Origin: Atrina japonica
Taxonomy: Eukaryota; Mollusca; Bivalvia; Pterioida; Pinnidae
Direction of reading: 5' to 3'
NCBI GenBank assembly: GCA_030159075.1
Contig: BROG01000236.1
Coordinates: forward strand, 124,001-188,000
DNA: 64,000 bases
Notes under the pieces: model-generated
The model's input: the letters and a program-made list of their open reading frames with translations, nothing else
What the model was told of the DNA's origin: nothing
Database searches by the model: none
Translations under genes and position numbers: made by a program
In this document: positions 11,751 through 62,714 of the stretch, piece after piece
Layout: every line of letters begins with the position of its first letter
How positions within the stretch are numbered: position 1 is the first letter of the stretch

Positions 11751-11814
11751 AAACGTGCCAATATTAGCTTGGAAGACTACACTTATTATGATGAAAGCGA
11801 CTCTGAAGAATACC

Positions 11815-12234
11815 GGCGACGGTGTATAATTATAAAATGCTTATGACTGTCAAACCTCTACCACTGTCATACCTATCAGCAAACCACAACAAGATGTACC
11901 ACTACCATGATTATACCACATAGATAATAACTGATAATACAGATCTGGCGTACCACAATCATATTAATGAGTTAAAGCTGGGTTTTTTCTCAGATAAACA
12001 TAGTTTTTTTTTCAGTTAATGCAAAATCCAAAAAAAAAAAATAGGTTCAACTGGGGAAAAACTAGGTTTAGATTATCAATGTGATTTTGGCATGTTACCA
12101 TTCTTACAAAAACTTATTCGGTAGGTCTAGTTATTGTAGTTCATTATCAATTTTGCCAAATTACCAATACTTATTTTCAGAGAATTAATTAACTGTATAC
12201 TGCTGTCTATTACAGTAAGGAGAACATCCAGCTA
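11815..12234 (+). repeat. Dispersed repeat, clean left copy; left bracket of the 41-kb insert
   Basis: This stretch contains CAAACCTCTACCACTGTCAT, ACCACATAGATAATAACTGA, GGTTCAACTGGGGAAAAACT and, at its end, AGAACATCCAGCTA. It is present again, with many indels and substitutions, at 53195-53634. A shorter relative with an internal deletion lies at 58119-58345. Normal sequence stops exactly after GCTA at 12234. Confidence 0.9.
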
Positions 12235-15200
12235 AAGGAGTAAAGGGTCTAGAGCTAGTAGGGAGAACTAGCCTAAGAGTAAAAAGAGAACTAAAGAAGA
12301 AAAAAGAGACATAAAGAGAAAAGAGAAAGAATAAAGAAAAAATAGATAGAAGTAAAGTAAAAAAAGCTAGAAGAAAGAGAAGCTAAAAAAGAGAGTAAGA
12401 ATATAAGACAGAAAAGTACTATAAAAGGAAAAGAAGAACTATATATAGAAGAAAAAAAAGACTAGAATAAGATAAGAAAGACTAGAGCGAAAGATCTAAT
12501 AAGATAAGCAGGAAAGGAGGAATAAGCAAGAAGAAGAAGAAAAAGCTAAAGGTAAGGGAAACAATAACTAAAGAAGTATATAAAGCAATAAGAAGAAAGA
12601 AAGGAAAGGAAAGAGAAAGGGGAAAAGTAAAAAACGAAGAAAAGGAGACGGAAAGAAAGATAAAAAAAGAAGGAGAGAAATAAGAGAGTAGAGAAAATCA
12701 AAAATAGAGGAAAAGAAAAAAGAGAAGTAAAAAAAAAGTAAGAATAGAAGAAGAAGAAGTAAAAAAAAGAGAAGAAAGTCAGAAAAGGAGACGAAAACTA
12801 GGATAACTACTATAGAAGGAAGATAAGAAGGAGAGCTAGAGAAATAAGAAAGAAAGAGGCTAGAGTGAAGGGAGAAAAGAGCTAGAAGAAGAAAAACTTA
12901 AGAGAAAGAGGAAAAGAATAGAAGGAGAGTAGATAAACTAGAGAAAGTATAAAAAAAAAAAAGAAGAGATAAAGAGAATAGAAAGGAGAGAAAAACTTAA
13001 GAGAGAAAAAAGTAAAAAAAGATAGAAATAAGTATATAAGGGAAGGGAAGAGAAAAACTAGAAAGAGAGCCCAAATAAGAGAAAAAAAAGAGGAAGTAGA
13101 AATACAAAAAATAAAGACTAAGAAAAGAGAAAGGGAGGAACTAAAGTTAAGATAGCCCTAAGAAATAAGCTAAGAAGAAAAGGCAGACAATAAAAGAAGA
13201 GAAGAAAAAGCAATAACGAAATAGAGAAACTACTAGAGGGAGAAAAAAAACAAAAGGTAGGAGAAAAAGGAAAACTAGGAAAAAAAAAGGAAAAAAGTAG
13301 GGAAAAGAGAAGACCTAAAAGAGGAAAATAGAAAGGAGCAGAAAGGAGAAAGAAAAAATAATAGGAGTAGAGGAAAAAGAACAATAGATAAACCGCTAAA
13401 AGAAAGAAAGGAAGAAGAAGGAAAAAACTAAAAAAAATAGAAACAACTAAGAAAGGGAAGCGAGAAGAGAAGATAAGGAAAGCAGACAGAAAAAAGGAGC
13501 AGAAGGCGGAGGATTAAAAGACACTAAGAGCTAGAGAGACAAAAAAGAAGAAAGAATGACTAAAGAAGTAGAAGAAAAAAAGGATAAAAAGAATAAAAAA
13601 GACTATAAAGTAAGAAAAAAAGAGGAAGAGGAGAAACGAAAAAAGAGGACGAAGAAGAAAGTAAAGAGTAGCGATGCTAAAGGAAAGAGATAAAAGATAA
13701 GTAAAGTTACAAGAGAAAAAAGAAAGCTAGAGATAAAGACAAAAGTAAAGATAACAAAGAATAAAGGGGAGGAGGATAAGAGAAGGAACTAAAGTTGGAA
13801 AAGGATAAAGCTAGTAAAAAAGATAAGTAAAAGAAAGAGAAAGAAACGGAAAGGACAACTAAAACTATGAGAAGAAACAGATAAAGAAAGCTAGAAAAGC
13901 TAAAAAAAAATACAGACTAGAAAAGAAAGAAGAATAAAGGAAAAAAAAGAGAAGAAAATAGTACTAAAGAGCACAAACTACAACAACAATAAGCTAAAGG
14001 AAAAAGTTAAAGAAAAAAAGACTAGACTAGGAAGGATGAGAGGTAAAAAAAAAAGAAAGTAAAGACTAGAAGGAGAAACTAGAGACAAGAAAAAGGAAAA
14101 TAAGGGAAATTAAAGAAGAAAAGAAAAAATAAAAAAACGTAAAAGGAAAAGATAGTAAGACATAGAAACCTAAGTATGGTAAGTAGAGAAGCTAAAAAGG
14201 AAGAGAAAAGAAGAAGAAAAAAAGAAATATATATAGAAAGGAGAAAGAAAGCTACAAAAAAGAATAGTAAGTATAAAACAGGGAAAAAGAAGCAGTAAGA
14301 AGGCAAGAAAAAAGAAAAGTAGAAATAGGAAGAGAAAAAAAGAGGAGAGACAGGAATAAAAAAGAGAATATAAATAGGATATAAAAATAGTGAAAAAGTA
14401 GTACTAGAGTAGAAATAAGCGTAGAGAAAAGAGCTAAAAGAAGAAGAGGAACAAGGAGGAGACAGAAGAGGGATAATAGAGAGAAGAGAAAAAGAGGAAA
14501 AGAATAGCTAAGTGTAAAGAAAAGAAAGTAGAAAGAAGAGAAAAGCCTATCCTAAAGTAGAAAGGAAAAAGAGGAAAAGAAAAAGTAAAGCTAAAGAAAA
14601 AAGAGGATAACTAGAAGTAAAAAAGGGATCAAAAGAAAAAATAAGACTAATGAAAAGACAAGAAGAGTATAGAAGAAGGAAAAAAGAATAAAGAGAGTAA
14701 AGGGAGAAACAGAGGGAGGAGAATAAAGTAAAATAGAGAGAAAAAAACCAAAGCCTAAAAAAAATAGGAAATAAAAAGGAATAAAGAAGAAAAAAAAAAG
14801 CAAGAGCTAAGAAGAAAAGAAAGAGCACTAAAGAAGGAATAAGCTAAAGGAAAAGATAAGGTAAAAGAGAAGAGAAAAATTAAGACTAGAAAAGAAAAGA
14901 AAGCCGAACAACTAAAGAAAGAAAAAAAAGAAGGAGCTACAAAAAATAAAAGAGAAGGGAGAAAAGCTAAGAGTAAGAAACAAAAAAGAGCTATAGAAAA
15001 AAAGAGGGAAAAAAAGGAAAAAGAGAAGATAAGACAAAGACAAAAGAGTAGAAAGTAGAGAAAAGAAAAAGGGTAAGCTAAAGAGCTAAGAAAAGAGAAA
15101 GAAAAGAAAGAGAAAGAGAGAGAGATGAACTAGAAAAGAGACTAAAGGGGAAATAAAGACCTAAAAAGCGTAAGGAGGGTAAAGAACAGTAACAGAAAGT

Positions 15201-18200
15201 AATCTAGCTCGGAAAAATAAGTAGAAAGAGGAAGAAGAGAAAAAGAATAAAGAGAAAGAGAAAGAGAGAAGAAAAGAGAGAAGGAAAGAGAAAGAGGGGA
15301 GGAAGCACAAAAAAAAAGGAGAGAGATGAATACATAAGTAAACTAGAGAGGAAGAAAAGATAAATAAATAAAAGAGAAAAGAGTAGGAGAGAGGAGTGAA
15401 GAGAAAAGATAGCCAAGAGAAGAAGTAGATAATAAAAAACTAAGGAGAAAGAGAAAGGAGAAAAAGGAAGAGAGAAGAGGTAAACTAAGCTAGGACTAGA
15501 GAAGAAAAAGTAACTAGAAAGAATAGTAGAAAGAAAGAAGAGAAATAGAATTAAAGAACAAGAAAAGCGGATAAAAAAGGAAGAAGGAAAAAAAGAAAAA
15601 GTGGAAAAGAAAAGAAAAAAGGTAATAAAAATAGAAAAAGAAGGAGAATAAAAAAAGGAGAAAATTAAAAAATAATAAAAGAGAATAAAAGAGTAGCATA
15701 TATAAGAGAGACTAAGAAGGGATAGGAGAAGAGAAAAGAAAAAGCTAGAAGAAGGGAAGGGAGAGAAAAAAAAAGGAAAAAATAAATGAGATATCATAGA
15801 AGTAGAGGCAAGACAAAAGAAAAAAACGAAGAGAGAGTAGAAGCAAAAGTACACCTATAAGAAAAAAGTAAAGTCAGGTTAAGGAAAGAGAAAGGAGAAA
15901 ATAGGAGAGAAGAAAGGAAAAGAAAAAAGTAAAAGGAGATATAGAGAACTAGGAAGGAGCAAAATAAGAACTAAGCAGAAGGGAAGTAGGAAAAGGAAGA
16001 AAAGAGTAGAAGTACTAGAAACATATAGGAATAAGTAAAGAAAGAAACTAAAGGAGAGGGCAAAAAAAAATAAAGAGAAGAAAGGATAAGAGAAGAAACA
16101 ACATATACAGAAGGAAAACTAAAAACTAACTAAAGAGAGAGAAGAAACAAATGAAGAGAAAAGAGAAAAGAAATAGAAATAGAGAGAGTAAAAATATAGA
16201 GGGAAGTAAAAAAGAAAGAGAAAAAGAGGAAAAAGAGGAAGAAACTAAAAAGATAAAGAGAAAACTAGGGAAAAGGGAAAGAGAAGAGATAAAGTAAAAA
16301 CTAAAGAATAAAAGGAGGGAAAGAGCTAGAAAAGTAGAGGGAAGAAAGAAGAGGAGAACGAGTAACAGAAGGAAGAGGCCACTAAGCGAGAATAAGCTAG
16401 ACTAAGAGAAAGAGAAATAGTAAAGAAAGAGCTACGGGAAAGAAAAAAACTAAAAAGGAAAGCTAAGGAAAAAGAAAAAGAAGAAGGTAAAAAAAACTAA
16501 AGAAGAGATATAGACTAACAAAAACTACTAACTAGGAGAGAGATAAAAGAGAGATAAGAGAATAGAGCCTAAAAAAGAAAAAAAAATAGAAAAGAAGAAG
16601 GGGAAGTTATAAAAAAAAAACAAAAAAAAAGAATAAAAAGAAGAGAATAAGACAAAGAGGAATAGGGTGGTACTAGAAGGAGGAGAGGAACGAGAGAATA
16701 AAGTAGATAAAAAAGGCAGAATATAAGAAGAGATAGGAGAATAGAAGCACAGAAGGGAAAGGTAAAAGGTAAGAGAAGCATAACGATAAATAAGAGAGAA
16801 GAGAGAAAAAAAAGAAGGAAAGCAAAGAAAGCCCTCAAAAAGAAGCTAGAGAAAAAGAACTACAAAGGAACTAAAGTAATAGAAAATAGAGAAAAAAACC
16901 TAGGAAGAAGGAGAAATAGAAACAAAAAGCGACCTAAAGAATAGGAAAAGGAAAAAAAAAAGGAGAAGAAAAAAAGAAAAGATAGAAATAGAAATAAACG
17001 GACAAAAAGAGAGAAAATAAGAATAGAAAGAAACTTAACTTATATAGAGAAGACAAAAAAAAAAAGAGAAAAAATAATCAAAAAGAGACACGAGAGAGAC
17101 TAGAATAGAAGAAAAGAAGAGAACTAAAGAGCTAAGAAATAAGAAAAAGAAGCGAGAATAAAGAAAAAAAATAAGACAGATAAAAGAAAGCCAGAAAAAA
17201 AGGATAGTAAAAAAGAAGATAAAATCTAGGAGTAATAAAAGAAAAAAAAAGAGAGAACTAAATAATAGCAACACATAGGAGAGAGAGAAGAAGACTAAAG
17301 AAAAAAGACTAAAAAAAAGAGGATAAGAGTAGGCCCTAAACTAAAGAAAAAAAAAAAAGAAGAGTAGAAAAGAGAAGAGGGGGAAGAAAAGAGGTAGAAG
17401 GCGAGTATAGAATAAGGATAGGAAAAAAAAACATAGAAAATAGGCAAAAGGTAGTAGAACAAGAAGAGGAGATAGAAGAAGAGATGAGAGAAGGAGAAAG
17501 CAAGAAGCTAAAAATAAAGACAAATTAAAAAACGTAACTAAAGAAAAAATAGAAGGCTAGAAAAAAGAAAGAGAAAAAAGGAAAAGCTAGAAAGACTAAA
17601 GAAATAAAGAGATAAGATAATGTAAACATAGAGAAAAAAAGAAAAGAAGTAAGGCTAAGAAGAGAGCAGAGAAAAGAAGAAAAAGGGAACAACAAGAGAG
17701 ACTAAAATAAGGAGGGAGTAAAAGAAAAAGGAATAGAAAGAGAAGTAAAGAAAAAAAAAATAGAGAGAAGAAAGGGAGTAAAAAGAGAAGAAGATAAAAA
17801 AAAACCGCGAAGAAAAGAGGAGGAGGAAGAATGAGTAGAATAGAGAGAGAAAAGAAAGAAGAGAGAAAAAGAAAAGATAGATAGATAGGAGCAGAGGAAG
17901 TAGCATAGCAAAATAGAGAATAAAACTAAAAATAAAAAGAGACAGCAGATACAAAAACAGAATAAAATAAAAAACAAGAAAATACGGAAATAGAGAAAAA
18001 GTAGGACAGAAAAAAAAAAGAGAGAAAGAGGAGGGGAAAGAAGCAAATATAAAATAAAAAAAAAGAAAAAGTAAAGGAAAGAAAAGGCGCGGAAAAAGAA
18101 AAAAAAGATAAAAAAGAAGGTAAATAAAAAATTATAAGAGAAAAGAAAGCTGAGAGAACTAAAAGAAGAGGAGAAAAGAAGAAAGGAAATGAAGATAAGA

Positions 18201-21200
18201 AAGAGACTAGCAAAGTAAAGGAGAAGGACCTATAAAAGGAACTAGATAGAGAGAGTCAAAAAGAGCAATAGCTAAAGAGAAAAAGAGAAAAGAGAGGATA
18301 AAACGAAGAGGAAAGTAAGAATAAGAAAGCAAAGAGAGGTAAAGATAAAGGGCATAAAAAGACTAAAAAAAAAAGAAAAAAGAGAAAGAACTAAAAGAAG
18401 AAACCAAGTAAAAGAGAGAAAAAAAAGAAGGAAGGGAAGTGAACAACGAAAAAGTAAACTAGAGAAACAAAGCAGAAAAGAAAGAGGAAATATAAGATAA
18501 TAAGAAAGAAAAAAATACAAAAAAAGAGTAGAAAAGGACAAAGGAGGAACAAAAGAGAGAAAAAAAAGAAGAGACAACTACTAGACTAGGGAGAAGAAAA
18601 ACAGAGAAGAACTAAGAAGAGAGTAAAACTTAAAGAGAAAAATAAGAAAGAGCTAAAAAAAAAAAATAAGAAAAAAAGAAAGTCTAAAGGGAAAAAGAAG
18701 ACTAGAAAAAGAAGAGAAAAACAACTAAAGAAAGACAATTAATAAAGGGTAAACTAAGAGAGAGAAAAAGCTATAGAAGAAGAGAAGGATAAAGAACATA
18801 GAAAAGAGGTAAGATACGAAAAAAAGGAGCTAATAGCAAATAAAGAGCAGAGAGAGTAGGAAGAATATTAAGAGAAACGAAGATGAAGGTAAGACGTAGA
18901 AGAAGAAGAAAGGATAGAGGCCAAAGAGGAAGAGGAAAAAAAGAGAGAAGAAGAAAGAAGAAAGAAGAAAAGAGAAAAAAAGAGGAAATAACAAGAGAGG
19001 AGAGAAAAGAAAGAAAACTAAGAGGAGTAGTTAGTAGCCTAAGCAAAGAAAAAGAAAAAAAGAAAGCCTAAACTAAAGAGGAAAAAGAGACTAAACAAAG
19101 AAAAAAAATAAGGATGAGGAAAAAATAAGTATGAAAAGGCATAAGGATCTAAAGGATAGATAAAGAAAAGACGAACTAAGAAGGAGGAAGAAGAAGAAGG
19201 AAAGAATATGAATATGAGAATAAGAAAAAAAAATAGACTAAGAGAAGAAAAAAACAGTAAGTAAGAGATAGTAAAGCAAAAAACCAAAATAAAGATAACT
19301 AAAAAGAAATAAAGAAGAAATAAAGTAAAGAAAAGACAACTAAAAAGATAAAAGAGCCTAAGAAGAAGCTAGAAGATGGAGAAAAGAAGGGTAAAAAAGG
19401 AGCTAAAAGTAGGTAAAAGGATAAGAAGAGCAAACCCTAGAAAGAAAAGAAGAGCAACTAGTAGGAAGAAAGAAGATGGGGGAAGGGAATAAAGACTAGG
19501 ATAACTAAAGGTCTAGGAGAAAAAACTATAAGAGTAGGAAGATAAGAAAAGCATAAAGAAAAACTAAAAGGTAGAGGAAAACACACTAAAAAAAAAAAAC
19601 GGAACCTATACAGAGAAAAAGGAGTGAAAGCGAGAAACAAATAAGGACCTAAGGAGATAAGGAAATAGAGAAGAGAAAAGCTAGAAGAGAGTATAGCAAA
19701 GAGGGAGAATAAAAAAAGAAAGAAGCAAAAGAAGGAAAAAAAAGAACATTGAAAAAGCAATAGAGCTAAGATAGGTATCTAAGAGGTAAGCATAGAGAGA
19801 ATTAAGGAGAAAGGCTAAAAGGAAAAAGTAAAGACTAAAAGATAAAACAGAGAGAATATAGAGAAGGAAAGAAGATAGAAAAAAAAAAAATAAATAAAGA
19901 AAATAAGAGAATAAGAAGAGAGAGAAAAAACGAAGAGAAGAAGGAGCGAAGAGTAAAAAAAGAGAAAAGAAAGAAAGAACGGGAGGAAGACATAGAAGAG
20001 AAGCATAATAGAAAATTACTAAAAATAAAGGAAAAGAAAGATAGAAAACTAGGAGGAAAGCATTGACAAAGGAAAAGAAAAAAAAGAAAGAAACAAGGAA
20101 AGGAAAAAACATGACTAAGAGAGTAAGAAGAAAAGAAAGAAAAAAAGTAGAGCGAGATAGGACTAAGAGAAAGCATAAATCCTAGGTAGAGAAAAAAAGG
20201 AAGGAAGAGAAAAACGAAACTAAAAAAAAAATAACTACTACAAAGAGAGAAAAAGAGAACCTAGCTAAAAAGAAGAGAAAAGAGAAGAAGAAAAACAAAC
20301 AAAGAACTAAGAGAGAAGAAAAGAGAATAAGTAAAGCTACTTAAAGCTAAGAGAGAATAGAATAAAGAAGAGAAGACAAGAAGGCTAAGAGGGAAGGAAA
20401 GAAGATAAAGAACTACTAAGAGAGCTAGAAGGGGGACTAAAAAAAAAAGAAATAGCAGACTAGGAAGAGAAGAAGAGAGACCCTAGAGAAAGAAAACGAG
20501 AAAGATACTGAAATAAGAACTAAGGAAGATAAAAAAAGAGATAAAAGATAATTAAGGCTAAGAACAAGATAGAAGTTAACTGAGGAAGAAATAAAGAAAA
20601 AATAAAAAAAACTAGAAAGTAGAGGTAGAGGGATAGTAAAGGAGACAAAAGTAAGAAAGAAACTAGAGGGAAGATAGAATAGGAAAAATAAACACAGAAG
20701 AACACTAGAAGAGAATAAATTAAAAAACCTAGAAGAGAAAGAAAGGTAGCATTATAATAGAAGAAAAAAAAGAAAAAAGAATTGCTAGAACGAAAGATAA
20801 GAAGAAAAGAGAATAAAAAGAAAAAAGACTAAAAAGTAAGATAAAGAATAGAAAGAGAATAGGAGAAAAAAAAAAATAAAAAAAAACTATAGAGAAAAGA
20901 TCAGATAAAATAAAAAGAAGAGAAAAGCAAGAAAGAGGTAAAAAAGAAAGAAAAGGAGCTAGGAAACTAGAAACAGAAATAGGAAAGAAAAAAAAGAGAA
21001 AAAGAAGAGATAAAGAGAGAAAAAAGAGAAGAAGAAGAAAAAAAAGAATAAAAAAAGAAAAGGAAAAGTAAAAGCAAGCAGAAAAGGTAGAATAAGAAGA
21101 CAAAAAGAAGTAGAAGAAATAAAAGTAAGAAAGGAAATATAGGATAAGACTATAAAAAGAAGAGAATAGGAAAAAAAAAAGAAAAAGATAAAACTAACGA

Positions 21201-24200
21201 AGGACCTAGAAATAAAGAGAAGAACATAGGGTACTAGCTCAGAAGGAAAGAAGAACTCTAAGAAAGAAAAGAGAGGAAGAGTAAGAAAAGAAAAAAAGAC
21301 AAGGACTAAAAGGAAGAGACCAAGAAATATAAAAGACGAGTAAAGTAAAAGAAACGGAAAAAAGAAGAATAGAGAGGAAGAAAAAAAAGAACAAAGAATA
21401 AAAAGAAAAGAAGAAAAGAGAAGAAGGAGGATAGAAAAAACAAGGAGAAGAGAGAACTCAGATAGTAAAAGAGATAGGCGGAAAAATAGGACTAAACAGA
21501 AAGAATAATAATACTAGAGGAGATAGGAGAGTAGAGCTAAAGGGAGGAGAGAAGAAGGGAATAAAAAAAAGTAAAAGAGAAAAGAAGAGAGAAAAGAGAA
21601 ATAAAAAACAAAAAAGAAGAAGAGAAGAAGGGAGAAAAAAGCTAAAAACTAAAAGAGAGCGAAGAAAAAGATATAAAGGGGAAAAATAGACAAAGAAGTA
21701 AATAGAGAAAATAAAAAGATAAAAAAGATAAACTAACTAAGAAAAAGAGAGAAGAGAAAAGAAAAATAAAAAGACAAATAGAAAGAGTAAAAAAGGGAAA
21801 AGAAAAGAGGAGGTAGTCAAAAGAAAAAGATTAAAATAGGCAAGACTGAAAAATTAGAAGAAGGAAACGAGATAAGAAGAAGAAAAATAAGAAAAAAAGA
21901 AGTAGGACGAGAAGAAGGAATAGAAGGACCTAAAGAAGAAGAGAGCAGAGGAGGAAGAAGAGGACTACAAAAGGTGAAAAAAAAAATAAATAAAAGACTA
22001 GAAGAAAACTAAAGAAAGAGCTAGAAGAAAGGGCTAGAGTACAAAAGAAAGAGAAGAGAGGAAGCGCTAGAGGAAAGAAAAAAAAAAGAGGAATAAAAGA
22101 GAATATGAAGAGAGAGAAACAACAACAAGGAAGAAAGAGTAACTAAAGAAAAAAAGGAGAATAAAGAAAATACTAAAAAAAAAAAGAGGAGGTAGAGATA
22201 AGAATATTAGAACTACAAAAATAAAAAGCGAGGCAGATAAGCCTAAGAGAGAGAAGATACATAGAAGGCTAAAAAGTAGAATACAAAAAGAAGTAAGAGA
22301 CTTAGCTAAAAGCGAAGAGAAGGAGTGAAAAGGTAGAACATTAGAAAGGAAAGAAAAGAAAGAAAAAAAAAACTAAAGGAAAGAAGAAAAGAAAAGAAGA
22401 GAACAGAAAGCACTAAAGAGCAGGAGAGAAAAATAAAGACTAAGGGAAATAAAAAAGACTAAGTAGAGACTAAAGAGGGAACTAGAAAGAAAAAACTAAG
22501 AACTAAAGAAAAGAGTAAAAATAAAAGTCTAAAAGAGAAAAAAAGAAGAGAAAAATATAAAGAAAAAACAGAGAAGAAGAGAACTAGCGTAGGAACTAGA
22601 AGGAGAAGAAAAAGAAAATGGGAAAGCCAAAAAAAAGAGAGAGAGAGAGAGAAAAAGAAAAAAAGTAAAAGAAAAAAGAAAAAGAAACTAAAGAAACTAA
22701 GAATGAGAGACTAAAATAAATAGAACTAAAAAAAGAGAACGAGAAAGAGAAAAGAAAGTAACAAAAGAAGACTAGAGAGAGAAAAGAAGATAAGCAAACA
22801 GAAAAAAGTAAAAAGAAGTAAGTAGAATAGAACAAAAAAGGACGACATACAAGGAATAGAGGAGGAAAAAAGAAGCTAATAAAGAAAGAGAAAAGTAAGG
22901 TAGGGAGGAGAGAAAAGCTAAAAAAAGGAAAATAAGAGGGTAGTAAAAACTAAAAAAGATAAAAAAAAAGAAAAGAGTAACTAGAAAGAGGATAAAAGAA
23001 AAATATGAAAAGAATAGGAGAAGAGCTAAAAAAAGCAATAGGAGAGGTAGAAAAGAAAAGAAAAGAGAAGGGCAGAAGGGAAGGAAAGATAACTAAATGC
23101 TAGAAACCTAAGCATAAGAGAGCGGAACTAAAGTAAGACTAGTAAAGGGAGAAAGAAAAGAAGACTAGAAGAAAAGAGTAAGAAGAGAAAAGGAGAAAAG
23201 GATAAGAAAAAGTAATAGACAGAGTAAAAAGTAAATAAAAAGAAAAGAAAAAACAGAAAAGGAAAGAGGAGCTAGGGAGAAACAGGAGGAATATAAAATA
23301 AAAATAGAGAGGAAGAAAAAAGAAAGTAAAAAATAAATAAGAAACTAATAAAAGACTGAAAAGGTAAAAAAGAAAAAGGTGAAGAGAAATTAGAAGAAGA
23401 AGAAGACGAGAGTAGATAAAGAAAAACAGATAAGAAACTAGAGGAGCAAAGACCAAAAGAAAGAAGTAGAAAGCATATAGAGTAGAAGGTAATAGAGGAA
23501 GCTAAAAAGAAAAACGATAAAGTAGAAATCAAAAAAACTAGAAAGAGAGGAAGTAAATAATAAAAAAGAAATTACTAAGAACAGTATAGAAAGAGAGAGA
23601 AAAAAGAAAAGAAAACTAATAAGAGAAGAAAGAAAAAAATTAAAGTTTAAACAAAAAAAAAAATAAATAAAAAAAGACAAAAATAAGAAAAGAGAGGATA
23701 AATAAAAGGAAGGAAAAGGGTAAAAAAAAAAATAGACTAAGGAGCTAGGGAAGAGACCATAAGAAGACTAGAGTAAAGAGAATAAAGAAAAAAAACAGAC
23801 TATGAAAGAGAAAGAGAAGAGAAAGAAAGAAAGGTAAAAAATAGAAAAAAAAAGAAAAAGAAGATAACAAAAAGAATAGAGAAAAGAAAAATAATGAATA
23901 GAGACTCAAACTAGCTAGAGAGGGAAAGAAGAAGTAGAAAGGAGGTAGAAAAAAAAGAGAGAAGAAGGGGAAGAAGAACTTAAAATAGAGACTCAAAGGA
24001 AAAGAAAAAGAAGAAGAAAAGTAAAGAACTAGGAAAAAAAAACTAAGGATAAGAGAAAAAGCGGAGGAAAAGTAGAAAAGGAAAGAAAAGCAAAAGAGGG
24101 AAAGGAGGACTAGAACGGGAAACTAAGTAGAAGATAAAAAAATAGAGAAGAAAGAGACTAGAGAGTAACTAAAGAAGCTAAGTAAGAGAGAAGGAAAAGA

Positions 24201-33200: not shown

Positions 33201-36200
33201 AAAAAACTAATAGCATATCGATGGAAAAAACTAATAAAGAAAAAAAAAGAAGAGAAAGTAAGAACACTAATAAATAAGAAAAAAGTAGAAGAAAAACGAA
33301 GAAAAAGAAAGAAAAAGGGAAAGTAAAGAAATAAAAAGAAAAAGAGGAAAATACAGAAAGAGAGAAAAGCTAGAAAAAAAAAAAGGAAGATCACTAAATG
33401 CTAAGGAAGATAAAAAATACTAAGTGGTACAACTAACTAGAAGGAAGGAGGAAGAAGAAAAAATAAGAAATAAAAGAGAAGAAGAAAAAAAGTATGAAAG
33501 AAATAAGAAGAAAAGAGCGTAGTAAAGAAAGATAAAGAAAAGGAGAGACCAAGTAAAGAAAAGAAGGAAAGGAGATGCATAAGAAGGAGAGTAAAAAAGA
33601 GAGGGGTAAGAAAAGAGTAAGATATAGAAAGAAGCTAGAAAAGAAATAAAAGAAGAAGAGAATAAAGAAAGTAAAAAATAGAAAGGATAAGACTAATAAG
33701 GTAAGAGCGGGAGAAGAGAAGGAAGAAAGGTAAAGAAAGAACTAAAACAAGAGCAAAAGAAGAAAAGGAGCTAGCCTAAATATAGAAATAGGAAAGCAAA
33801 GGGATGAGAACAAAGAAACGAAAGGAGAAGGGAAGAGAAAAAAGATAAAGAAGAAGAAGAGAGCAACCGAGAAGCAGAGAGAAGAAGAAGAGAAATAGAG
33901 GAAAGATAAACAAAAGGAAAAGGAAAAAAAGAGAGAAAAAGAAAACTAGAAAAGTCAGAAAAATAAGTGATAAGAAGGGAAGAAAAAGAAGCTAAAAAAG
34001 TAGAAAAAGAAAGGGAAAGGGTAAAAGTGAGAAACTAGGCAAAAGGAAAAGAAAAGAAAAGATAGCCTGAAGGAGAGATTGAATTAATGAAAAAAACTGA
34101 AGAAAAGAAAAAAGGACTAAGGAAATAAGAAAGAGAAGAGAGACTATCAAGAAAATAAAGAAGAAAGAAAAGAAGAGAGATAGAAAGACTAAAGAAAGTA
34201 AAAAAAGAAAGAAAACTAAAAGGAAGAAGAGAGGAAAGAGGAGAACAGTAGGTAAAAGGAACTAGAAAAAAAAAGAAAGTAGGAATAGAAAGGAGCCAAA
34301 TAAGTAAAGAGTCAAAAAAAACATAGAGACGAATAGGAAATTAGGATAAGAGCAAGTCAAGAAAGGGAAGAAGAGAAGAGAAGATAAGGCTAAAGAGGAG
34401 TATAGAAAGCACTAATAGTAGAAATATAGAGAAGGGAAAGAAGAATAGATAGAACTAGGAGATAAAGAAGGATAAAGATTAAAAGAGTAATACAGGGAAT
34501 ACAAGAAGAAAGAGAAAAAGTAGACGAAAAGAAAGGAAAAAGGAAAGAAGAAAGAAGGAGAAAAAAAACCAATTAAAGGAGAAGAGATAAGCAATATAAA
34601 AAAAAAAGAACGAAGAAGAAAAAAAAAAAGCTAGAGAAGAAGAAGACTATAACTAAGAGTAGAGCAAAAAAAAGGAAAGAGAGAAAAAAGGGAAGAAACA
34701 ATAAGAGCTAAAAAAGATAGAGATAGAGTAAGAAATAAAAATAATCGAAAAGATAGGACTAAGCCGAGCTATAGAATAGAAAGCGAATAGGAAGACTAAC
34801 CAAAAGAAAAAGTAAAGAGAAAAAAAAAGGGGAGCGACCTAAAGCGAAAATAGGTAGAGCCATAAAGCAGGCATAGAGGATAAAAGGGAAAGGAGAAAAA
34901 GGAAGAGAAGTAGGGATAGAGAAAAAAAGAGCCAAAAAAGAGAGTAGTAATAAAAAGAAAAGGAGCCACTAAACTAACAGAAGAATAAAAATAGCCGGAA
35001 AAAGATAAATAAAGAGAAAAAGAAAAAAAAAAATACTAGGGACTAAATTAGAGGTAAGAAAAGTAAAGGAAGAAGAAAGAAAAGAGAAGAATAAAAAGAG
35101 GAGAAACTATAGGAACGGTAAAAAAGAGAGATATGTAAAAAACTAGAGAAGAGGAAAAGAGACTAAAGAGATAAGGAAAGAAGAAGTAGGACTAGAGTAA
35201 AGAAAAGAAAGTAAGGAAAGCAGAAATAGGAAAAGAATAGAAAGGACAAAGAGATTAGAGGGGAGAGATACACAACCTAAGAGGAGAGAAAGTTAAGAAA
35301 AAAGAGAAAGGCGAACCTAAAATATACATAGAAGGGGAAAAAAAAACAAACAGGAAGGAAGGAAAAGTAGAAAGAAAGAGAAGGATAAAGAGAAAAAAGG
35401 AGAAGAGAAAGGGAAAAAGAAAAGGAAAGAAAAGAAGACTAGAAGCTAGAACTAACTAAAGACGAAAAAAAGGGAAAAATTAAAAAGGAGACTAAAAAAT
35501 AAAGAAAGTAGAAGAAAAAGAAGAGGAAAATGCAAGAAAAGACAAGAAAAAAGGACTAAAGAGCTTACGACTAGAGAGGAGATAAGACTCAAAGGAGTAG
35601 TAAAAGAACTAAACTAAGGTAAAGATCTAGAAGCAGGAGCAAAGAGGAAAAAAAAGTGAAAAGCAAAAGAAACTATAAACTAAGAAAAGTTAGTAGGGAA
35701 AAGAAAAAATAGGAAAGAAACAATAGGCTATAGTAAGAGAGAGAAAGAGAAATAGAAAATAAGAAAGAGAAAAATATAGTAAAAAGAGAAAAAAAGTATA
35801 AGAGATAAGAACTAAAGAAAGGTAAGGTAAGAAGAGAGATAAAAATAGAGAAGGGAGACAAAAAGAAACTTATAGAGAGTAAACTAAAGGAAGAGGAAAC
35901 AAAAGAAGGAACTATGAGAGGAAGAGAGAAAAGGAATAAAGGAGGAAAGAAGAGAGGAAGATAGTAAAAGAAAAGAGAGGAAAAAAGAAAGAAGATAGAG
36001 AAAATAAGAGAAGAACCTAGGAGAGGACTAGGGAAATTAGGATAAAAGTATTAAAGAAGCAAGCAAAAAGAAAAGAGAAAAGAAAGGAGAAAAAAAGAAG
36101 AAAGAGCTAGAAAAGAAAGAAAAGTCCTAGGGAAGCAACGGTAAATAAAAAGAGGGAAAGAAATAAGAAAAAGAGGAATAGATAAGGAAGCTAGTACAAA

Positions 36201-39200
36201 GGAGAGGAGAAGAAAAAGAGAAAGAGAGGCGAAGAAGAAGAATAAAGAGAAGAAGAAAAAGAGAAAAAAAATAAAGGTAAAGAGGAGAATAGAGGAGCTA
36301 ATAAGAATTAAGGCAGAAAAGAAGAGAAGAAACTAAGAAGAAAGAAAAGAAAGAGAAGAGATAAAGAGAATAAGAGAAAGAAACCTAAAGAGGTAAAAAA
36401 AGAAGAAAGAGTAATAAGGCTAGAAGGGGAAAGCTAAAACATACCTAAGAGAAAAGCGAGAAGAAGCTAGAAAAGAGAGATAGGACTAGGGAGAGGATGA
36501 AAAACGCTATAAGGAATACAGATAAGCTAAAGAAAAAGCTAAAAGATTAAAAAGAAGAAGGAAGGTATAGATAAAAGAAGAAAACTAGCCTAAAGATAAG
36601 AAAGAAAAAAAAGATCATAAGAACTAAAAGAGAAAGTAAAAAGAAAAAAGCCTAAACTAAAAAGAGAGGAGAAGATAGAAAAAGAAAAAAGAAAGAAAGA
36701 AAGTAAGAAAAAGAAAAAGGAGAAAGAGATTGCTAGAAAAGAAAGATAACAGAGAAGGAAAAGGAGAGATGCTGACTAAAAGATAAAAAAATATGTAAAA
36801 GGGTAAAAAGAGAAATAGACAAATAGAAAAAAGGGAGAGAGGAAAGATAGAGAAAAGTAAGAAAACAAGAGAGGGAAGAGAAACTAAACTAATGAAAATC
36901 ATAGAAAGAGGAGTAAAAGGGAACAAGAGAAAGAATAGAGAAGACTAAAGAGAAAAAAAAAAAAAAAAAAAAATAGAAAAGAAGGGAAAGGGTAAAAGGG
37001 AAAGCCTAAAAGAAAGAATAAAAAAAAAAAGAAAAAGAAAAAAGAGAGGAGAGAAATAAAGAGAGAAAGAAAAAGGTAAAGAAAATTAAAATTAAGAGAG
37101 AAGGAAGAGGAAAGAATAAGAAGAGAGAGGGAAAAAGAAAGAAAGAATAAAAGAGTAAAAAAGAATATAAACAATAGAAGAAAGGAAAGAAAAAGAAGAG
37201 CAATAGACTAAGAAAGACAAAACTAAGAAGAAGTAGAAAAAGAGCGAAAGGGAGAAAGAAGACAGCTTAAGGATAAATAGGTAGAGAGCTAAAAAAGAAG
37301 AGGAAAGGAAAGAAGATAATAGGATAGAAGGAAAGGAATAGGAGAAAAGGGAAGAAGCAAGAAAGTAAGAGAAAAGATAAAAAAACTAAAGGAAAGAAAG
37401 AAGAAACTCAAACTAAGAGAGGAGCACTAGAAACTAGTTAAGGAAGAAAAGTACTAAAAAGAAAACGAAAAGAAAAAAGGAAAGAAAAAAGCACTAAAAG
37501 AGAGAAAGAAAGAAAAGAGAAGAAAGAAGGTAGAGAACCTATAGCTAAGAGGAGTAGAAGAAAAAGTAAAAGGGAAAGAGGAAGAGAAAAAGCCGCTAAG
37601 AAGAGCAGGAGAAGGGGAGAAGATAAGAAAGAAGTAGAACTAGAGTAATTAGTAAAAGAAAAGAAAAAAAAAGAAAGAGAAAATAGGAGAAATGAAAAAA
37701 AAAATATAAGACTATAAAAAGAGTAAAAGACTAAAAGAAGAGCAAAAGAGGAAAAAGAGAGAAATAGAAAGAAAAAGAAACATAAAGTAAAACTAGATAA
37801 GAAAAAAAAGAAACATAGAAAAGAAAGGGAAGAAAGAAGAAGGAATAGAATAAAGAAAAGAGAAAAGAAGCTAGAAGGAAGAAGCTAAAGAAAGACGAAG
37901 AAAACAAGAAAAGGAACAAAAAGCTAAGAAGCTAGAGAGGTAATAAGAGGATATAGCTAAGATGAAAGAAAAAGAGATAGATAGCTAAAAAGTAAAGAGA
38001 GAAATAAAAAAGAAAAGAGATAAAAAAGTACGAAGGGCGGAGAGAAAGTACAGAAAATAAGACTAACTATAGTAAAGAGGAAACAAAGATAAGAAACAGA
38101 ATAGGCGAAGAAAAAAAAAAGGAGAGAGAAGAACTACTAAGATAAGAAGAAAGAAGAAGAGTAATAAACACGAAAAATAGAGTAGAGAAGAGGTAAAAGC
38201 ATAAATAGATAGTAGAAAAAAATGAGAGGACGAACCTAAAGAACTAAGTAGAAAAGAAAGGACTAAATGACAAAGAAGGCAGAATAAAGAAGAAGAATGA
38301 ACAGGAAGAAAAGAAAGGAAAAGAGAAAGATAAGAACATAAGCAAGCGAGAAAAAGAAAAAAAGAGAAAGAGAAAAAAAAAAAAAAGCTAAAGAACGAAA
38401 AATAAGAAGAGCTAAATAGATGAGAAGAAATAAAGAAGATAAAAAAAAAAATAAAAAAAAAAAAAATGAAGAAAAAAAAAGGAAAGGAAGTAAAGAGACT
38501 AGAACTAAAGAAAATAAGAAAGGAAAAAAAAGAAAGAGAAAAGAGATGATAGCAAGGAGATACAGAAGAAGTTAAAAGAAAGTTAAGGAGAAAAAAGTAA
38601 AAAGATAATAGCATAGACTAAGAAGAAATAAAGAAAAAAGTAAAAAAGGAAAAAGTAAAAAGGAAAGAAAAAAAATAGAAGCTAACTAAAAAAAGAGAAA
38701 GAAGGGAGAGAGAAAAGTAAAGGAAACAACTATAGAAGAGAAAAGTATACACAAGCATAAGAAAAGAGAAATAGAAAAGAAGAAAAAATAAAAAGCCTAG
38801 AAAGAAATAGAAAAGAAGGCATAAGGTAAAAAAAAAAGAAGGATACCTAAAAAAGTAGGAAAGTAAAGAGACAGAAAGAGAGGTATAGAAAGATAAAAAA
38901 GAAAAGGAACAAAAAAGAGAAAAGAAGGAAAAAGAAAGAGAAGAGAAAAAAGAGGAACAAGATAAAAAAAAAAAATAAGCCTAAGAGAAGGAACTAAAGT
39001 AGAAAAGGAAAGTAAAATAAGGATAAAGAAAAACAATAGAGAGAAAGAAAAAGAAAGGATAAGGAAAGGAAAACTAAAGCTAAAAGAAAGAAAAGGAAAA
39101 AAAAAAAGAGAAGAGAACGAACTAATAAAGGAAACAGATGTAAAAGGGAAAAAAAGATTAGAGGGAAAAAAAAAGAAATAATATAAGAAAGAAAGATACA

Positions 39201-42200
39201 AAAAACGAGTAAGATAAAGTAGAAAATAGATAGAATAAAACAACAATAAACTAAGAACTAGCTAAGAAAAAAAAAAAAGAAAATAAAGAGGAATAAAAGT
39301 AAAAAGAAAAGAAAAGAGCGAAAAGAGAACTAGAGAGAGATAAAGAGGAGAATAGAGAAAGCTAAGACCTTAGAGAACGATAAGAGGAAAATAGAACTAA
39401 GGAAAAGGACATAAGTAAAGAGAGCGTAAAAAGAGAAGAGAAAAGAAAGAAAAGACGAGATAGAAGAGCACTATAGAAAAAGAAGCTACTAGAAAGTCAG
39501 GGAAGACAAACTAGGGCAGAAAAAAGAGAAAAGGAAGAAAACCGTAGAAGAAGTAAGGAGCTAGAGAAGAAGAAAGAAAATAGAAACAAGCGTAATAACT
39601 AAGGTAAAAAGTAAGAGAAAAAAAAAAAAGGAAAGAAAGGAATAACTAGTAAAAGAATAAAAACTAAAGATAATAACAATAAAATAGAGAAAGTAAAAAG
39701 GTAAATAGAATTAGAGATAAGGTAAAGCAAAGAAAGAGAGGAAGAAGGAGAGGGGAAAGGGGGAAAAAAAGACACCTAAATATAAGAGAGGAGTAGGGAA
39801 AGAGAAAGGACTCAAAAGAAAAAAAAGAGGCTAAAAGAGAGAAAAAAAAGAGGAAGGAGAAGGTATGGTAAAGCTAAGGGAAGATAGAAGAGGGAAGAGA
39901 AGAAAAGAAAGAAAAAGAAGGAACGTAAAGAGGAAAATAAGAGAAAGAATCTAGAAAAGAAGAAGAAATAAGAAAAGAGCAAAGAGAAAGAAGAGAGCAA
40001 AGAGCTAAAGAGAGGAAAGCAAAACAAAGAGGACGAGAAGCGAAAAACTAAGAAAGAAAAGGAGTAAAGAAAAAAGAGAGAAAAGAAGAAAAGAGAAACT
40101 AAAAAAAAGAGGTGAGAAAAAGAAAAAGGGAAAGAAGAAAAAGAGATAAAAAGGAAAGAAGCCAAATAGGAGAAGTAGGGAAGCTAAAGGAAAAGAGAAA
40201 GAAAAAAAAGAGGAAATACTAAAATACCCGAAAGAGAGAAAAGAATAACGAAAAAAAGTAAGGAAAAAGAAACACTAGGAAGAAAAAAAAAAGAAAGTAT
40301 AAAGGGGAAAAAAGAAAAAATCTAAAAAGAGAAAGCAGAGGCTAGAGAGAGAGTAAGACAGAAAGCCCTTCAGTACTAAGAATAAAACTTAGAAAAAAAG
40401 AAAAAGAAGAAATAAAGAAAGTAGAAAGAAAGAGAAGAATAGACCGAGGGAAAGAAGAAAGAACTAAAGAAGAAAAAAGAAGTAAGAAAAAGGAAGAGAA
40501 AAAGAGAAAAGGAAAAAAAAGAGAGAAAAAGCAGAAAAGTAAAAAAGATAAAAAAGATAGCGAGAAAGAATAAGAAAAAAGACTTAAAAGGAAGAGCAAA
40601 GGAGAAGAAAGAGAGTAGGAGAAAAGAAAGAGAGTAAAAAAGTAGGAGAACTACTAGAGAAGAACACAGAGAAAAAAAGAGAAAGAAAGAACCTATAGAA
40701 TAAAGAAGAAAGAAAGAAAGAGAGAACTAGAGTAGAAAAAAGAAAAAATAAAGAGAAAAGGGGAGAAACCTATAAAGAGAAGAAAATAGGAAAGAAAAAG
40801 CAACTAGAGAGGGAAAGGAAGGAGAGAAGAACTAGTAAAAAAGAGGAAATCAAAGCTAAATAAAAAAAAAATAGAGAAAGAGAAAGGAAACTAAGAAAGA
40901 TAAAAGAAAAGAAGGAAAAAAAAAAGACTAAAGAGCAGAGGAGGAGGAAAGAAAATAGAAAAGAGAGAAAACTTAAAAAGAAGAAAGAGAAAAAGAGTAA
41001 GAAGTAAAGGAGAAAGTAGAGATAAATCTAAGAGAGAAAAAAGCATGGAGGAGAGAAAAGAGAAAAGTAAGAAAAAAATAAAGATAAAAATCTAGAAAAA
41101 GGCAGAGAATAAAAGACAAAAAGAGAAAAAGAAGCTAAGAACAGAAACTAAAAATACATAAGATAGGACTAGAAGAAAAAAAAGGAAGAGAAAAGAAAGA
41201 GGGAGAGTAAAGGTAAAGAAACTAATAGATAGACTAAGAAAATAAGAGAAAACAGAAAGAAAGAAAATGGTAAAAAGAAAAGTGAAAAACAAAGAAAGGA
41301 GAAAAAAAGAAACTAAAATCATAGAGACGAAGGGAGAGTAGACAAAGAAAAGAATAGAGAAATAAAGGTACTAGGCTAGGTAGAAAGAAAGAAACAGAGA
41401 GACTAAAGAATAGAAAATAAAATAGGAAACTAAAACATAAATAACTAAAAGAAAAAGACAAGAGAAGAACAAAAAGAGGTAAAATCCTAAGAAAGGAGCT
41501 AGGAACCCTAGCTAAAAAAGAACTAAGATATAAAAACTAAAAAGAGAAAAAAAAAGAAAAGAAAGGTAAAAGAAAAGGGAGCCGCAACTAAAAAGAAAGG
41601 AAGCTAGAAAAAGTAGAAAAAGGAGAAAATAAAAGAGAGGAGAAAAAAGCTAGTCATAAGAGAAACGAGAGGAAATCTAAAAGGAATAAGGAAGCAAGGG
41701 AAGAAAATAAAATAAGCTAAACTAAGAGACAGATAGAGAAGGAAAGACGTAAAAAGAAGAATAAATAAGGAGGCAGAGGAGTAAATCACGAAAGAAAAAG
41801 AAAAAGGAAAAAAGCTAGAAAAGAAAAGCGAAGAAGAATAAGTTAGAAAAACTAAAACGCTAGATAGAACCTAGAATAAAAAACTAGGGGGGAAAAAAAG
41901 AGTTAAAGCTAGAATAGCTAGGAGAAGAGAGAGAAAGAGAGAGAAAAAGGTAAAGAAGATAAGAGAAGAAAGAGAAAAAGAACTAGGAAATAAAAAAAAT
42001 AGAAGCAGGCATACTAAAAGGGGAATAAGAGAAGGGGTAAGAAAAAAGACAAGGAGAATAAAAAGATAAAGTAAAAGTAAAAGATAAAGAAGAGAATGAA
42101 AGACACAGACTAGGAATAAAGAAAAAGATAAGGATAAGAAAAAAGGAGTAAGGAAAAAAAAGGGAAAAAAGAAAAGAAAAACTAACAGAAAGAGAGGAAA

Positions 42201-44783
42201 AAAAAGAGAGAGAAAAAAATAAAGAAAAGAAAAAAAAAGAAAAAACGATAAGAAAAGGCTAAAAGTTACTAACAGAAGAAAAAAAGGAGAGGGAAAAAGG
42301 AGAAAAGAAACTAAAGAGAGAAAAAAGAGAAAGAGGCTAAAATAGCTAAAAGAGAAGATAGACTAGTTAAAAGAGAAGCTAAAAGACACCTATAAAAAAG
42401 TAAAAGAACTAGGAAGTAGACAAAGGAAGAAGAAGAAAATAGATAAATGAATACAGGAGAAGAAGAAATAAATCGAAAGAAGGAGAGCTCTAAAGGAAAG
42501 AAAAAGAGGCAAGAGAAAGAAAAAAGAAAGCAAAGACTAGGAGAAGAAAAAAGAAAGAAGGGAGGAGAGAGAACAAAGAAGAGCTAGAAGGACTATAATA
42601 GCGGAGAAAAGAAGAATAGGAGAGATAAAGAAGCGAGAGATAGGAAGCAGACTAAGAGGTAGACTAAAGAGAAAAAGACAGTAAAGAAAAAGAGTAAGAG
42701 AGAAGAAAGATTAAAAAGAAAGAAGCAAGAGAATTATATAATAAAGAGTTAGAAAGGAGAGAAGTAACTAAAAATAAAAAGCAAAGAGAAAAGAAGAGCA
42801 TAAAGTAAAAAGAAAGAGAAAGAGAAAGAAGAGAGAAGGGAGGATTTAATAAAAAATAGAAAAGAAGAAAAAAGAAGAAAAAGAAAGAAAAATAGAAAAA
42901 AAAAGAGAAAAGAGCACCTAAAAAAAAGAAGAGTAAACACTACAGGAGGGAAGAGTAAAAGAAAGAAGAAAAAAAAAAGGAGAGAAAAAAAAGATATAGC
43001 TAAAGAAAGATCAGAGGGATAGCTACTAAAACTAAGAAGGAAAAAGAAGAAAACTAAGAAAGACGAAGAGAAGAAGAAAAAAATAAGAAAGAATAGAAGA
43101 TAAAAGTATGAGAGAGAGATAGAGCAAAAATAGAAAATAATAGGAAGAGATACAAGAAAGCATGAAGAAAGAGAAAAAAAAGAAAAGGAAAAAGAAAGAT
43201 AGAGATAAGGAAAGAACAAAGGAAAAAAGAGAAAAAGAGAGAGCAAGAAAAAAAAAAAACCTAAAGACTAGAAAGAGAGGAAGAATTACGGAACGCAGTA
43301 AGAGATAAGTAAAAAGAAAATATAGGAATAAGGACAATACAAATAAAGAGAAGAAGGAGAGGAAAAAAGGAAGGAAGCAAGAGGAAAAGAACTAATTATA
43401 AGAGGAGAAAGGACAAAGAACCTAAAGGGGCTAGACAGAAAAAACAGTTAGAAGAAAAAAAAGAAAAAAGCTTAGGCTAGTGAAAAAAGAGAGCACTAGA
43501 AAGAAAAAAGAAAAAAATTAAGAAGAAAAAGGACTACAAGTAAAAGAGGAAAAAGAAGAAATACTAAGTAAAAAGAAAGAAAGGATACTAAAAAAGAAAA
43601 AAGAATAAGAAAGGTAAAATAAACAAGCTAAGCATAGAGGAGCTAAGATATACAAAATCAATAAAACATAAAAGAAAGAGTAGAAAAAATCTAGAAGTAA
43701 AAGAAAAATAAAGAAGATAGAAGAGAAGAAGATAACGAGATAGGGAAAAGAATAAAAAAGCTAAGAAATAGCGACTAGTAAGGAGGAAAAGAAATAAAGT
43801 AAGGATAAAAAGGGTAAAGATAACGTAAGAGAGTAAATAAGTGAAAAGAAAAAAAAAAGAAAAAAGAAGAAGGAGAAGGAAAAGGAGAAGAAGCAGAGAG
43901 AAAGATAAGCAATAGAGAGCAAAGAGAGAGAGAAAAGGAAGAAGGAAAGGAAGAAAAAAAAGAAGGAGAGGGATTAAAGACAGACTTAGAGGAAAAAAAA
44001 GAAAAATGAGAAATATAAAATAAAGAAACTAAGGAGAGTACAGAGAGTAGAAGAACAACGTAAGAAAAGGAGATAGAGACTAAAGAAAGTTTAAGAGAAA
44101 AGACAGAAGATGAAAAACGAAATAATAGATATAAGTATAATAAAGACCCGAGAAAAAAGGAAGAAGAGAAGAAGGTAGAGGAATTAAGCTAAAGAGAAGA
44201 CAAAAGGAAGGTAGAAAAAATAAAAAAAGACAAGACAGAGTTAGAAGAAAGGGATAAAACTATAAGGAGAAGAGAAAAAGAAAAGAAAAGAGAGCAGAGA
44301 AAAGTAAAAAGAAGAGAAAGTAGGAGGAAAGATAAGAAGAAAAAGAGAAAGGGAGACTAGTATAAGGCATAGAAGTAAGAACAAGAAAAAAAGCAGAGAA
44401 AGAATTGGAAGAAAGCAAATAAAAAATAAAACTATAAAAGAGAATTAGGAGAGAAGGGAAAGAGAGACTAGGAGAAAAGTAGAAAACTAAAACAAAGAAA
44501 AAAAAAGGGAGAAAGGAAGAGAGAAAAGAGATTATTCTAGAACAACTAGAAATAAGAAAGTAAAGAGGTAAAAAAAAAGGGGAGTAAGAAAAAAGGGAGC
44601 GAGAAGGAGAGCTAAAAGTACTAGAGAAAAGAAGAGAAAAAAAAAAAAGTAAAAAAGAGATGAAAAACTAGGGAAAAAAAGCAGAAAGAATAATAAACTA
44701 AAAAAAAATAGATAAAGAGAGGATAAAAAGAGAAAAAGAAATAAGAGAGGAAGAAGATAGGAGAAGAGAAAATAAGAGGAAAA
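12235..44783. other. 32.5-kb aperiodic purine-rich block, probable sequencing/assembly artefact
   Basis: By eye nearly all bases are A or G, with A clearly commonest. T occurs almost only before A (CTA, GTA, ATA); TT, TC and TG are scarce, and C is sparse. There is no period, no repeated unit, no recognisable gene, transposon or microsatellite, and the texture hardly changes over 32 kb. A runs reach about 20 (36953-36973), while G runs are short. Minus-strand open frames here (F/L/S/Y-rich, 60-216 codons) arise because a T/C-rich strand rarely spells stops; they are ended mainly by plus-strand CTA (TAG on the minus strand). I annotate no genes. No natural 32-kb sequence class I know fits; a failed base-calling stretch does. 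Confidence 0.85.
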
Positions 44784-53194: not shown

Positions 53195-53634
53195 CGTCGC
53201 CGTGTAACAATACTCCAAATGCTTATGCCTATGTCAAACCTCTCCCCCAGTCAACCCTCACAGCCACCCCCCACAAGATGTCCCCCTCCCAATGATTCTC
53301 ACCACACAGATACTAACTGATATACCGATCTGGCCTGGCGTCCCACACAAGAAATCATCATTCCTGAGTTTAAGAAGCTGGGTTTTTTTTCTCAGATAAA
53401 CCATAGTTTTTCTTCAGTTAATGCACAATCCAAAAACCAAAATAGGTTCAACTGGGGAAAAACTAGTTAAGATTTATCAATGGTGGAATTTGGCAGTAAC
53501 CATTTCTACAAAAACTTATACGAAGGTCTAGTTATTGTAGTCATTATCAATTCATTGCCAATTACCAGACTTATTTTCAAGAATTAATAACGGTATACTG
53601 CTGCTATTAACAAGTAAGGAAGAACATCCAGCTA
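53195..53634 (+). repeat. Noisy right copy of the 11815-12234 sequence
   Basis: It aligns end to end with 11815-12234, both ending AGAACATCCAGCTA. Up to about 53340 the differences are mainly gains of C: left CTACCACTGTCAT corresponds to CTCCCCCAGTCA, and GATGTACCACTACC to GATGTCCCCCTCCC. Further right they become scattered single-base indels, as in uncorrected long-read sequence. The gradient runs away from the C-rich block. After GCTA (53634) the sequence continues as ordinary AT-rich DNA (GCCCGTCACAGG). Confidence 0.88.
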
Positions 53635-56600: not shown

Positions 56601-57369
56601 TGACCTTTGAAAGATTAACCTTGAAATTTTGACGTACATGTACTAATGTTCATGTCAGACCCAACAACTTTCACAAGCACAAGTTTTTTTTTCACAAAAA
56701 GTTGACAATTTATAAGGAAAGTTTCCAGTTTTAAACGATATCCCAAATAAAGATGTTTTTCATCTATTTTTCCGAAATCTTTACAAAACATCCTTCATGC
56801 TGGACTCATCAACTTCAAAATTCTTATGTCTTAACAAATGGTTAAAAGATATTTTTCAGAAAATTAGTACATGGATATCGTGTCTACAAACATAGTTTAT
56901 TTAAAATTAATTGTAGTCGGACTTATGAATAATTACATCAAAATGTCTGCACTTGAAAGGAAATCCAGTGATCTCTAATAGATAGTTTCACAAGTTGTAA
57001 CGCTAGCATTCCCTGAGCCCAAATGAACACCTATGTTTTTTTGTATATTTTACAAGACAATTTAACGAGTTTGCTCACAAAATTCAATAACATTGGATTT
57101 AACTTTTATAAAATATTTCTACAAACTGTAAAAAGAACAAAGCTTTTGAGTTGATTTAAATCAACTATTGCAAAACATGATTTGTTTGACAAACCCTATG
57201 AGGAAGTAACCATCAGTTGAAGATATCAAAGGCCCACAACTATGACAAACATTGCTGAATATCAAATGCATCATAGATCTTACTGAGATACTATTTCAGA
57301 ATTTGATTAAAGAAAATCAATCTTTATTTGATGGAACCCAAAATTTACCAAACAGAGAAACAGTTACCT
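53635..57369. other. AT-rich intergenic DNA, no gene recognised
   Basis: About 3.7 kb of ordinary-looking AT-rich sequence. Open frames are short (84 codons or fewer: 54428-54649 minus, 56066-56320 minus, 56383-56610 plus) and show no recognisable domain or splice-consistent partner. A small inverted pair ACAATTACAC / GTGTAATTGT occurs at about 55420 and 55467. No microsatellite of note. Confidence 0.6.
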
Positions 57370-57507
57370 GGTTTTTCGGTACCAGCTGATAACCTTATAT
57401 TTAAATAATACCACTTTCCCTTTCTAAAATATATATCAAATTTAGAGCTCAATTGAATTGACAGAAACAACCGTCTTGCGCATTATAACTTTGGTATTAT
57501 GTTTATA
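57370..57507 (+). repeat. Dispersed repeat modules shared with intron 3
   Basis: GGTTTTTCGGTACCAGCTGA at 57370-57389 and GAGCTCAA ... CTTTGGTATTATGTTTATA at 57445-57507 match 9152-9171 and 9022-9092. The order of the two modules is exchanged, as expected if both were cut from a tandemly repeated source. From 57508 to 58118 I see no gene or clear repeat. Confidence 0.65.
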
Positions 57508-60700: not shown

Positions 60701-60748
60701 TCACACATAATCAAAACTGAAAGCACTTGGTGATAAATAATTTGTATG

Positions 60749-62703: not shown

Positions 62704-62714
62704 GTAGCTCATAG

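Follow-up and report, generated by a model that had tools for sequence, protein, structure and literature searches.

Two blocks of noise calls and an error-laden flank copy in a contig of Atrina japonica: a probable raw long-read artefact

The window analysed here is a stretch of 64,000 nucleotides from contig BROG01000236.1 of the bivalve Atrina japonica (assembly GCA_030159075.1, positions 124,001 to 188,000 of the forward strand), and all coordinates below are positions in this window. On the strength of its letters, we put at about 0.95 the probability that positions 12,235-53,634 are not a real feature but spurious calls from raw single-molecule reads that were kept in the assembly; this figure covers the raw-read artefact as such. 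An earlier note on this DNA described a block dominated by A and G at 12235..44783 and favoured skewed, low-information base calling as its source. That reading is supported from sequence alone because the statistics of the block are near-memoryless, because a second noise block follows the first, and above all because the second block leads into a copy of the left flank that is full of errors, with those of C type concentrated beside the noise. The parts follow one another in the order of ordinary sequence (to 12,234), A/G noise, C-rich noise, erroneous flank copy and, from 53,635, ordinary sequence again; in the true genome, bases 12,234 and 53,635 would be neighbours.

The two noise blocks

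By maximum-likelihood change points, ordinary sequence ends at 12,233 and A/G-type sequence at 44,783, so that the edges given earlier were right to within a base or two. The anomaly as a whole extends further than had been described: a C-rich block adjoins the A/G block at 44,784 and continues to about 53,177, and neither this block nor the noisy left-flank duplicate after it had been noted. The type of noise changes at a single base, 44,783/44,784, and the two blocks together amount to about 40.9 kb. The right edge of the C-rich block is uncertain by some tens of bases; the change point based on composition only falls at 53,290, within the duplicate, because the start of the duplicate is itself C-rich.

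The A/G block consists of 61.1% A, 24.7% G, 9.0% T and 5.2% C, which bears out the reported dominance of A and G and the rarity of C. Its conditional entropy is 1.467 bits at order 0, 1.387 at order 1, and 1.385 and 1.384 at orders 2 and 3. Exact repeats at k = 12, 16, 20 and 24 number 9867, 1209, 55 and 0 (the longest being 23 bases), compared with means of 9857, 1078, 50 and 1.7, and longest repeats of 22-28 bases, in 20 order-1 simulations; the count at k = 16 is 1.4 standard deviations over the simulated mean. Base runs are close to a geometric law, with runs of A shown up to 14. No period was found by autocorrelation at lags 9 to 2000, where z stays between -2.59 and 2.73, and Tandem Repeats Finder returns 261 rows with a best score of 195, compared with 238-324 rows and best scores of 150-305 in ten order-1 simulations. 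These measures match first-order Markov noise, in agreement with the earlier statement that the block has neither period nor sub-structure. The variance of base counts per kilobase is below the mean of 200 simulations for all four bases, and lowest, relative to the simulations, for T, where 99.5% of the 200 reach or exceed it.

The A/G block does have a direction. The claim that T is almost confined to the position before A holds for 88% of the T, yet this is part of a wider directional pattern, C>T>A, in which CTA occurs 734 times and ATC 46 times, 93 of each being expected from base frequencies. Such a direction would fit a readout that proceeds in time. More speculatively, the staircase might reflect the order of signal levels in the instrument, C, T, A being, on one idea, that order on a PacBio machine.

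The C-rich block, with 59% C, 18% G, 13% T and 10% A, has exact repeats of 340, 8, 0 and 0 at the same four values of k (simulated, 302, 8.7, 0.1 and 0) and autocorrelation z between -3.0 and 2.98 over the same lags. Its variances per kilobase are below the mean of 200 simulations for A and G and above it for C and T; the latter two are reached by 32.5% and 12.5% of the simulations, so that neither block has a significant excess. In entropy, repeats, runs and autocorrelation, the noise matches a first-order Markov process, the C-rich block being slightly off in its tandem rows (see below). The flanks, unlike both blocks, are far richer in exact repeats than their own simulations. Moreover, strand symmetry is broken: between the 3-mer profile and its reverse complement, the distance reaches 0.85 for the A/G block and 0.68 for the C-rich block, while three pieces of flank, all from outside the tandem arrays at 901-8,399 on the left, give 0.06 to 0.20. 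A reading frame of 1,668 amino acids lies inside the C-rich block. Since C-rich sequence has few stop codons, as has the strand of the A/G block that is rich in T and C, such frames are presumably by-products of composition, and we rejected them as genes on that reasoning rather than by simulation.

Genomic content under the noise was sought by tolerant alignment at two settings, for which the two copies of the flank served as a positive control (253 versus a maximum of 24 in 8 controls, and 138 versus 14). In the C-rich block, the final 400 bases (12 controls) and the 400 before them (8 controls) were aligned with the flank upstream of the good copy, and neither reached its control maximum at either setting. 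The first 300 and the first 66 bases of the A/G block were compared with the inferred continuation of the genome, taken from 53,636 and thus one base past its start: two of the four scores lie within the control range, one equals the maximum of 20 controls, and one, 6.23, exceeds the maximum of 5.71 in 12 controls. We do not take this last score as a signal, and there is no convincing genomic content near either end of the noise. Among the 16-mers of the flanks, only one (at 58,526) occurs within the noise insert on either strand. RNA families gave 0 matches at the gathering score across the whole window. A megablast search of a plasmid collection found no match for 3,001 of the 32,549 bases of the A/G block or for 4,001 of the approximately 8,394 bases of the C-rich block, a weak test given its low-complexity filter and its restriction to plasmid records.

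The doubled flank

The last ordinary sequence before the break, X, recurs after the noise as X' (Table 1). The two copies match on the same strand at 80.3% (blastn, E 1.6e-87), and the match stops at the exact base where the A/G block starts. X' itself starts at 53,178 by blastn and at 53,194 by a stricter local alignment. The local score of X is 514; 100 shuffled targets reach no more than 83, and eight further pieces of the right flank, each of 1.2 kb, score 70-218, the 218 belonging to the piece that holds a dispersed copy of part of X.

The differences between X and X' occupy 95 of the 477 alignment columns (37 substitutions, 38 insertions and 20 deletions), and they are densest beside the noise: by quarters outward from it, the error columns number 35/119, 30/130, 17/114 and 13/114. 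Most of the substitutions are A>C (23), followed by T>A (7), G<->T (3) and transitions (2). From quarter to quarter away from the noise, A>C falls from 14 to 6, 3 and 0, and inserted C runs 6, 6, 0 and 1, while in the last quarter 11 of the 13 errors are insertions or deletions (indels). The C-rich state thus grades into good sequence and leaves a background of about 11% errors, mostly indels, that resembles a raw read. X' has, next to the noise, the error rate of a raw read, and it would have come from the same read as the noise.

The dispersed copy at 58.1 kb can serve as an outgroup over positions 11,840-12,088 of the left flank. In a three-way alignment, it sides with X in 38 of the 48 substitution columns and with X' in 5, the remaining 5 matching neither. 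When columns of every type are counted, it shares its state with only X in 59 and with only X' in 6, and in 16 no two of the three copies are alike. Since the outgroup agrees mostly with X, X' is to be read as X plus errors and not as a second genomic copy that diverged. The dispersed repeat (11840-12088 and 58112-58313) has these two copies in the window, on the same strand and at 67% identity; a weak inverted match also pairs 11919-12011 with about 58,258-58,349.

Table 1. Parts of the window on either side of and within the spurious stretch
Feature	Position	Strand	Evidence
X, last ordinary sequence before the break; good copy of the doubled stretch	11796..12234	+	blastn and local alignment
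Noise block 1, A/G-dominated, first-order Markov, without convincing genomic content	12235..44783	.	statistics, change points
Noise block 2, 59% C, sharp switch from block 1	44784..53177	.	statistics, change points
X', unpolished second copy of X	53178..53634	+	blastn, alignment, third-copy comparison
Ordinary genomic sequence again	53635..64000	+	ordinary composition and strand symmetry; HSPA12-like frame
Divergent dispersed copy (67%) of part of X, outgroup	58112..58313	+	blastn E 7e-24; three-way alignment

A raw-read origin and its alternatives

The most likely explanation is that a PacBio continuous long read (CLR) crossing the locus, with a long low-quality segment in it, was built unpolished into the contig; one such read would account for every part together. 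A single read is quite probably the source, and a PacBio instrument is considerably more probable than a nanopore one. The instrument would have lost the signal of the template and emitted noise calls in two successive states, A/G and then C-rich in the orientation of the window, and a 439-base stretch of one strand would have been read twice, once on either side of the noise. If the + strand was read, the signal would have failed beyond 12,234 and come back about 440 bases upstream, and the C-type miscalls would have died away over about 300 bases; if the - strand was read, the miscalls would have built up before the signal was lost, and the read would have resumed about 440 bases back. Errors that fade rightward fit either a + strand that regains the signal or a - strand that loses it. 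The return could be a slipping back or could have come on a later pass round a circular template.

The survival of such a read in the assembly may be accounted for in a similar way. An assembler or gap filler would have kept the noisy path, and near-collinear returns of this kind may be those least likely to be broken by an assembler. Polishing would then leave the noise unmended because no other read supports the path. Correct reads would be assigned to X on the left and, on the right, only from 53,635 onward, which would explain why X' is unpolished while its surroundings look polished.

Some of these steps have precedents. The PacBio-based tegu lizard genome paper names long low-quality segments and polymerase strand jumps as read artefacts (PMC6304105), and low-quality regions, chimeras and missed adapters are listed in another paper as issues of real PacBio reads (PMC8848313). 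The low-quality segments of PacBio CLR reads, which the patch step of the MARVEL assembler handles (PMC6304105, PMC7671305), resemble the present case in having junk calls inside a good read with the same locus on both sides; here, the junk amounts to about 41 kb, comes in two compositions and was carried through into a contig. A return to sequence already read is also, as we understand the terms, a feature of the polymerase strand jumps and missed adapters named in PMC6304105; the present return stays on one strand, goes back about 440 bases and has noise between.

As to the platform, PMC7671305 reports that PacBio reads have a slight excess of A<->C and G<->T substitutions, and Oxford Nanopore Technologies (ONT) reads one of transitions. 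The 37 substitutions of X', with their 23 A>C, 3 G<->T, 7 T>A and 2 transitions, can be compared with these tendencies, although the comparison is confounded by the adjoining C-rich state; the excess of A>C would be one of T>G if the read ran the opposite way.

Several observations weigh against a PacBio read of this kind. The 7 T>A substitutions fall outside the kinds typical of PacBio; a return over 440 bases is not something that a polymerase does readily, and the restart point is unexplained; and errors rich in indels, together with slipping back, fit nanopore reads too. The C-rich block gives 17 rows in Tandem Repeats Finder as against 5-14 in ten first-order simulations, a slight excess that is also unexplained. 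Finally, a literature search covering titles and the openings of abstracts found no description of noise of such composition or length.

Another possibility, unlikely but the strongest of the alternatives, is a nanopore read, which would be a raw-read artefact as well. A strand in a nanopore can be pushed back by reversed voltage and read again. A stalled strand would thus give noise and, after being pushed back, would be re-read from about 440 bases back, which would naturally account for a restart on the same strand a few hundred bases upstream, while the 11 indels among the 13 errors in the last quarter of X' would also suit it. However, near-memoryless noise, with geometric runs of A up to 14, would be unexpected from neural base callers, and only 2 of the 37 substitutions in X' are transitions, whereas transitions are the excess described for ONT in PMC7671305.

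It is somewhat less likely again that two junk-ended reads, one running from X into A/G noise and the other from C noise into X', were joined by an assembler or gap filler. This, too, would be a raw-read artefact, and the single sharp switch between the two types of noise is what a join would give. Nevertheless, it would require two rare faulty reads that ended less than 440 bases apart, and the joining of two types of noise unlike in composition.

A real insertion, in which a giant purine-rich tract of low complexity and a C-rich tract would be bounded by a direct target duplication of 440 bp, is hardly credible. Direct repeats that enclose 41 kb look, superficially, like a target duplication, but the changes in the duplicate are of the type of errors, are densest beside the insert and are mostly absent from the third copy. 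The insert, moreover, lacks both a repeat history and strand symmetry, hardly any structure of higher order is present, and it shares with the flanks only the 16-mer mentioned above. The same very low probability attaches to an unprecedented insert of 41 kb, information-poor and strand-asymmetric, such as an untemplated polymerase product, with a mutated 440-bp copy of its target. A mobile element with a target duplication was rejected because its repeats should be identical, if young, or both diverged, if old, while here the differences are mostly in X' and densest near the insert.

A giant polypurine/polypyrimidine tract with the potential to form triplexes (H-DNA), the biological alternative considered earlier, is not supported. 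Known tracts of this sort are long runs of purines on one strand without interruption, often mirror-symmetric or made of simple repeats, and the likeness to them lies in a strong A/G bias on one strand; the A/G block differs from them in its scattered pyrimidines (C+T making up 14%), its near-memoryless order, its lack of periodicity and of repeats past the Markov expectation, and its C-rich neighbour. Nor would one expect a real tract to precede a block of 59% C and, after that, a copy of its left flank with changes of the error type. A satellite or other tandem repeat was likewise rejected, no unit in the A/G block rising above chance and its repeat counts and Tandem Repeats Finder rows lying within those of the Markov simulations.

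Flanking sequence and consequences

The ordinary sequence to the right of X' contains an HSPA12-like open frame of 374 amino acids at 60,749-61,873 (-). Its best named relative among the matches listed is from Pinctada imbricata (66% identity over 97% of the query; another match has 67%), and heat shock 70 kDa protein 12A-like and 12B-like proteins of oyster, scallop and mussel follow among the best 120 of 1,019 matches; in Pfam, HSP70 is matched only below the curated cut-off. On the left, a frame on the opposite strand, 9825-10859 (+), also looks like an HSPA12-type relative of Hsp70; its resemblance to the right-hand frame is one seen by eye only, and it has no Pfam match at E 0.001. The left flank also carries two repeat arrays. 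At 967-4534, a unit of 36 bp is repeated 98.9 times at 90% match, with open frames of up to 591 amino acids across both strands; this array is probably a minisatellite. In a second minisatellite, at 6633-7610, the periods are nested and rise in steps of about 20 bp (39, 59, 80 and 99 bp); this array lies close to a TG-rich run at 7619-7689.

The relevance of the stretch is thus one of data quality only: about 41.4 kb of the contig (12,235-53,634) is to be treated as spurious. Such a stretch can give rise to false open reading frames, to false annotation of low complexity and to a false insertion in comparisons. Similar inserts in long-read assemblies could be screened for by the combination of a first-order Markov composition, a broken strand symmetry and a noisy duplicate of the flank.

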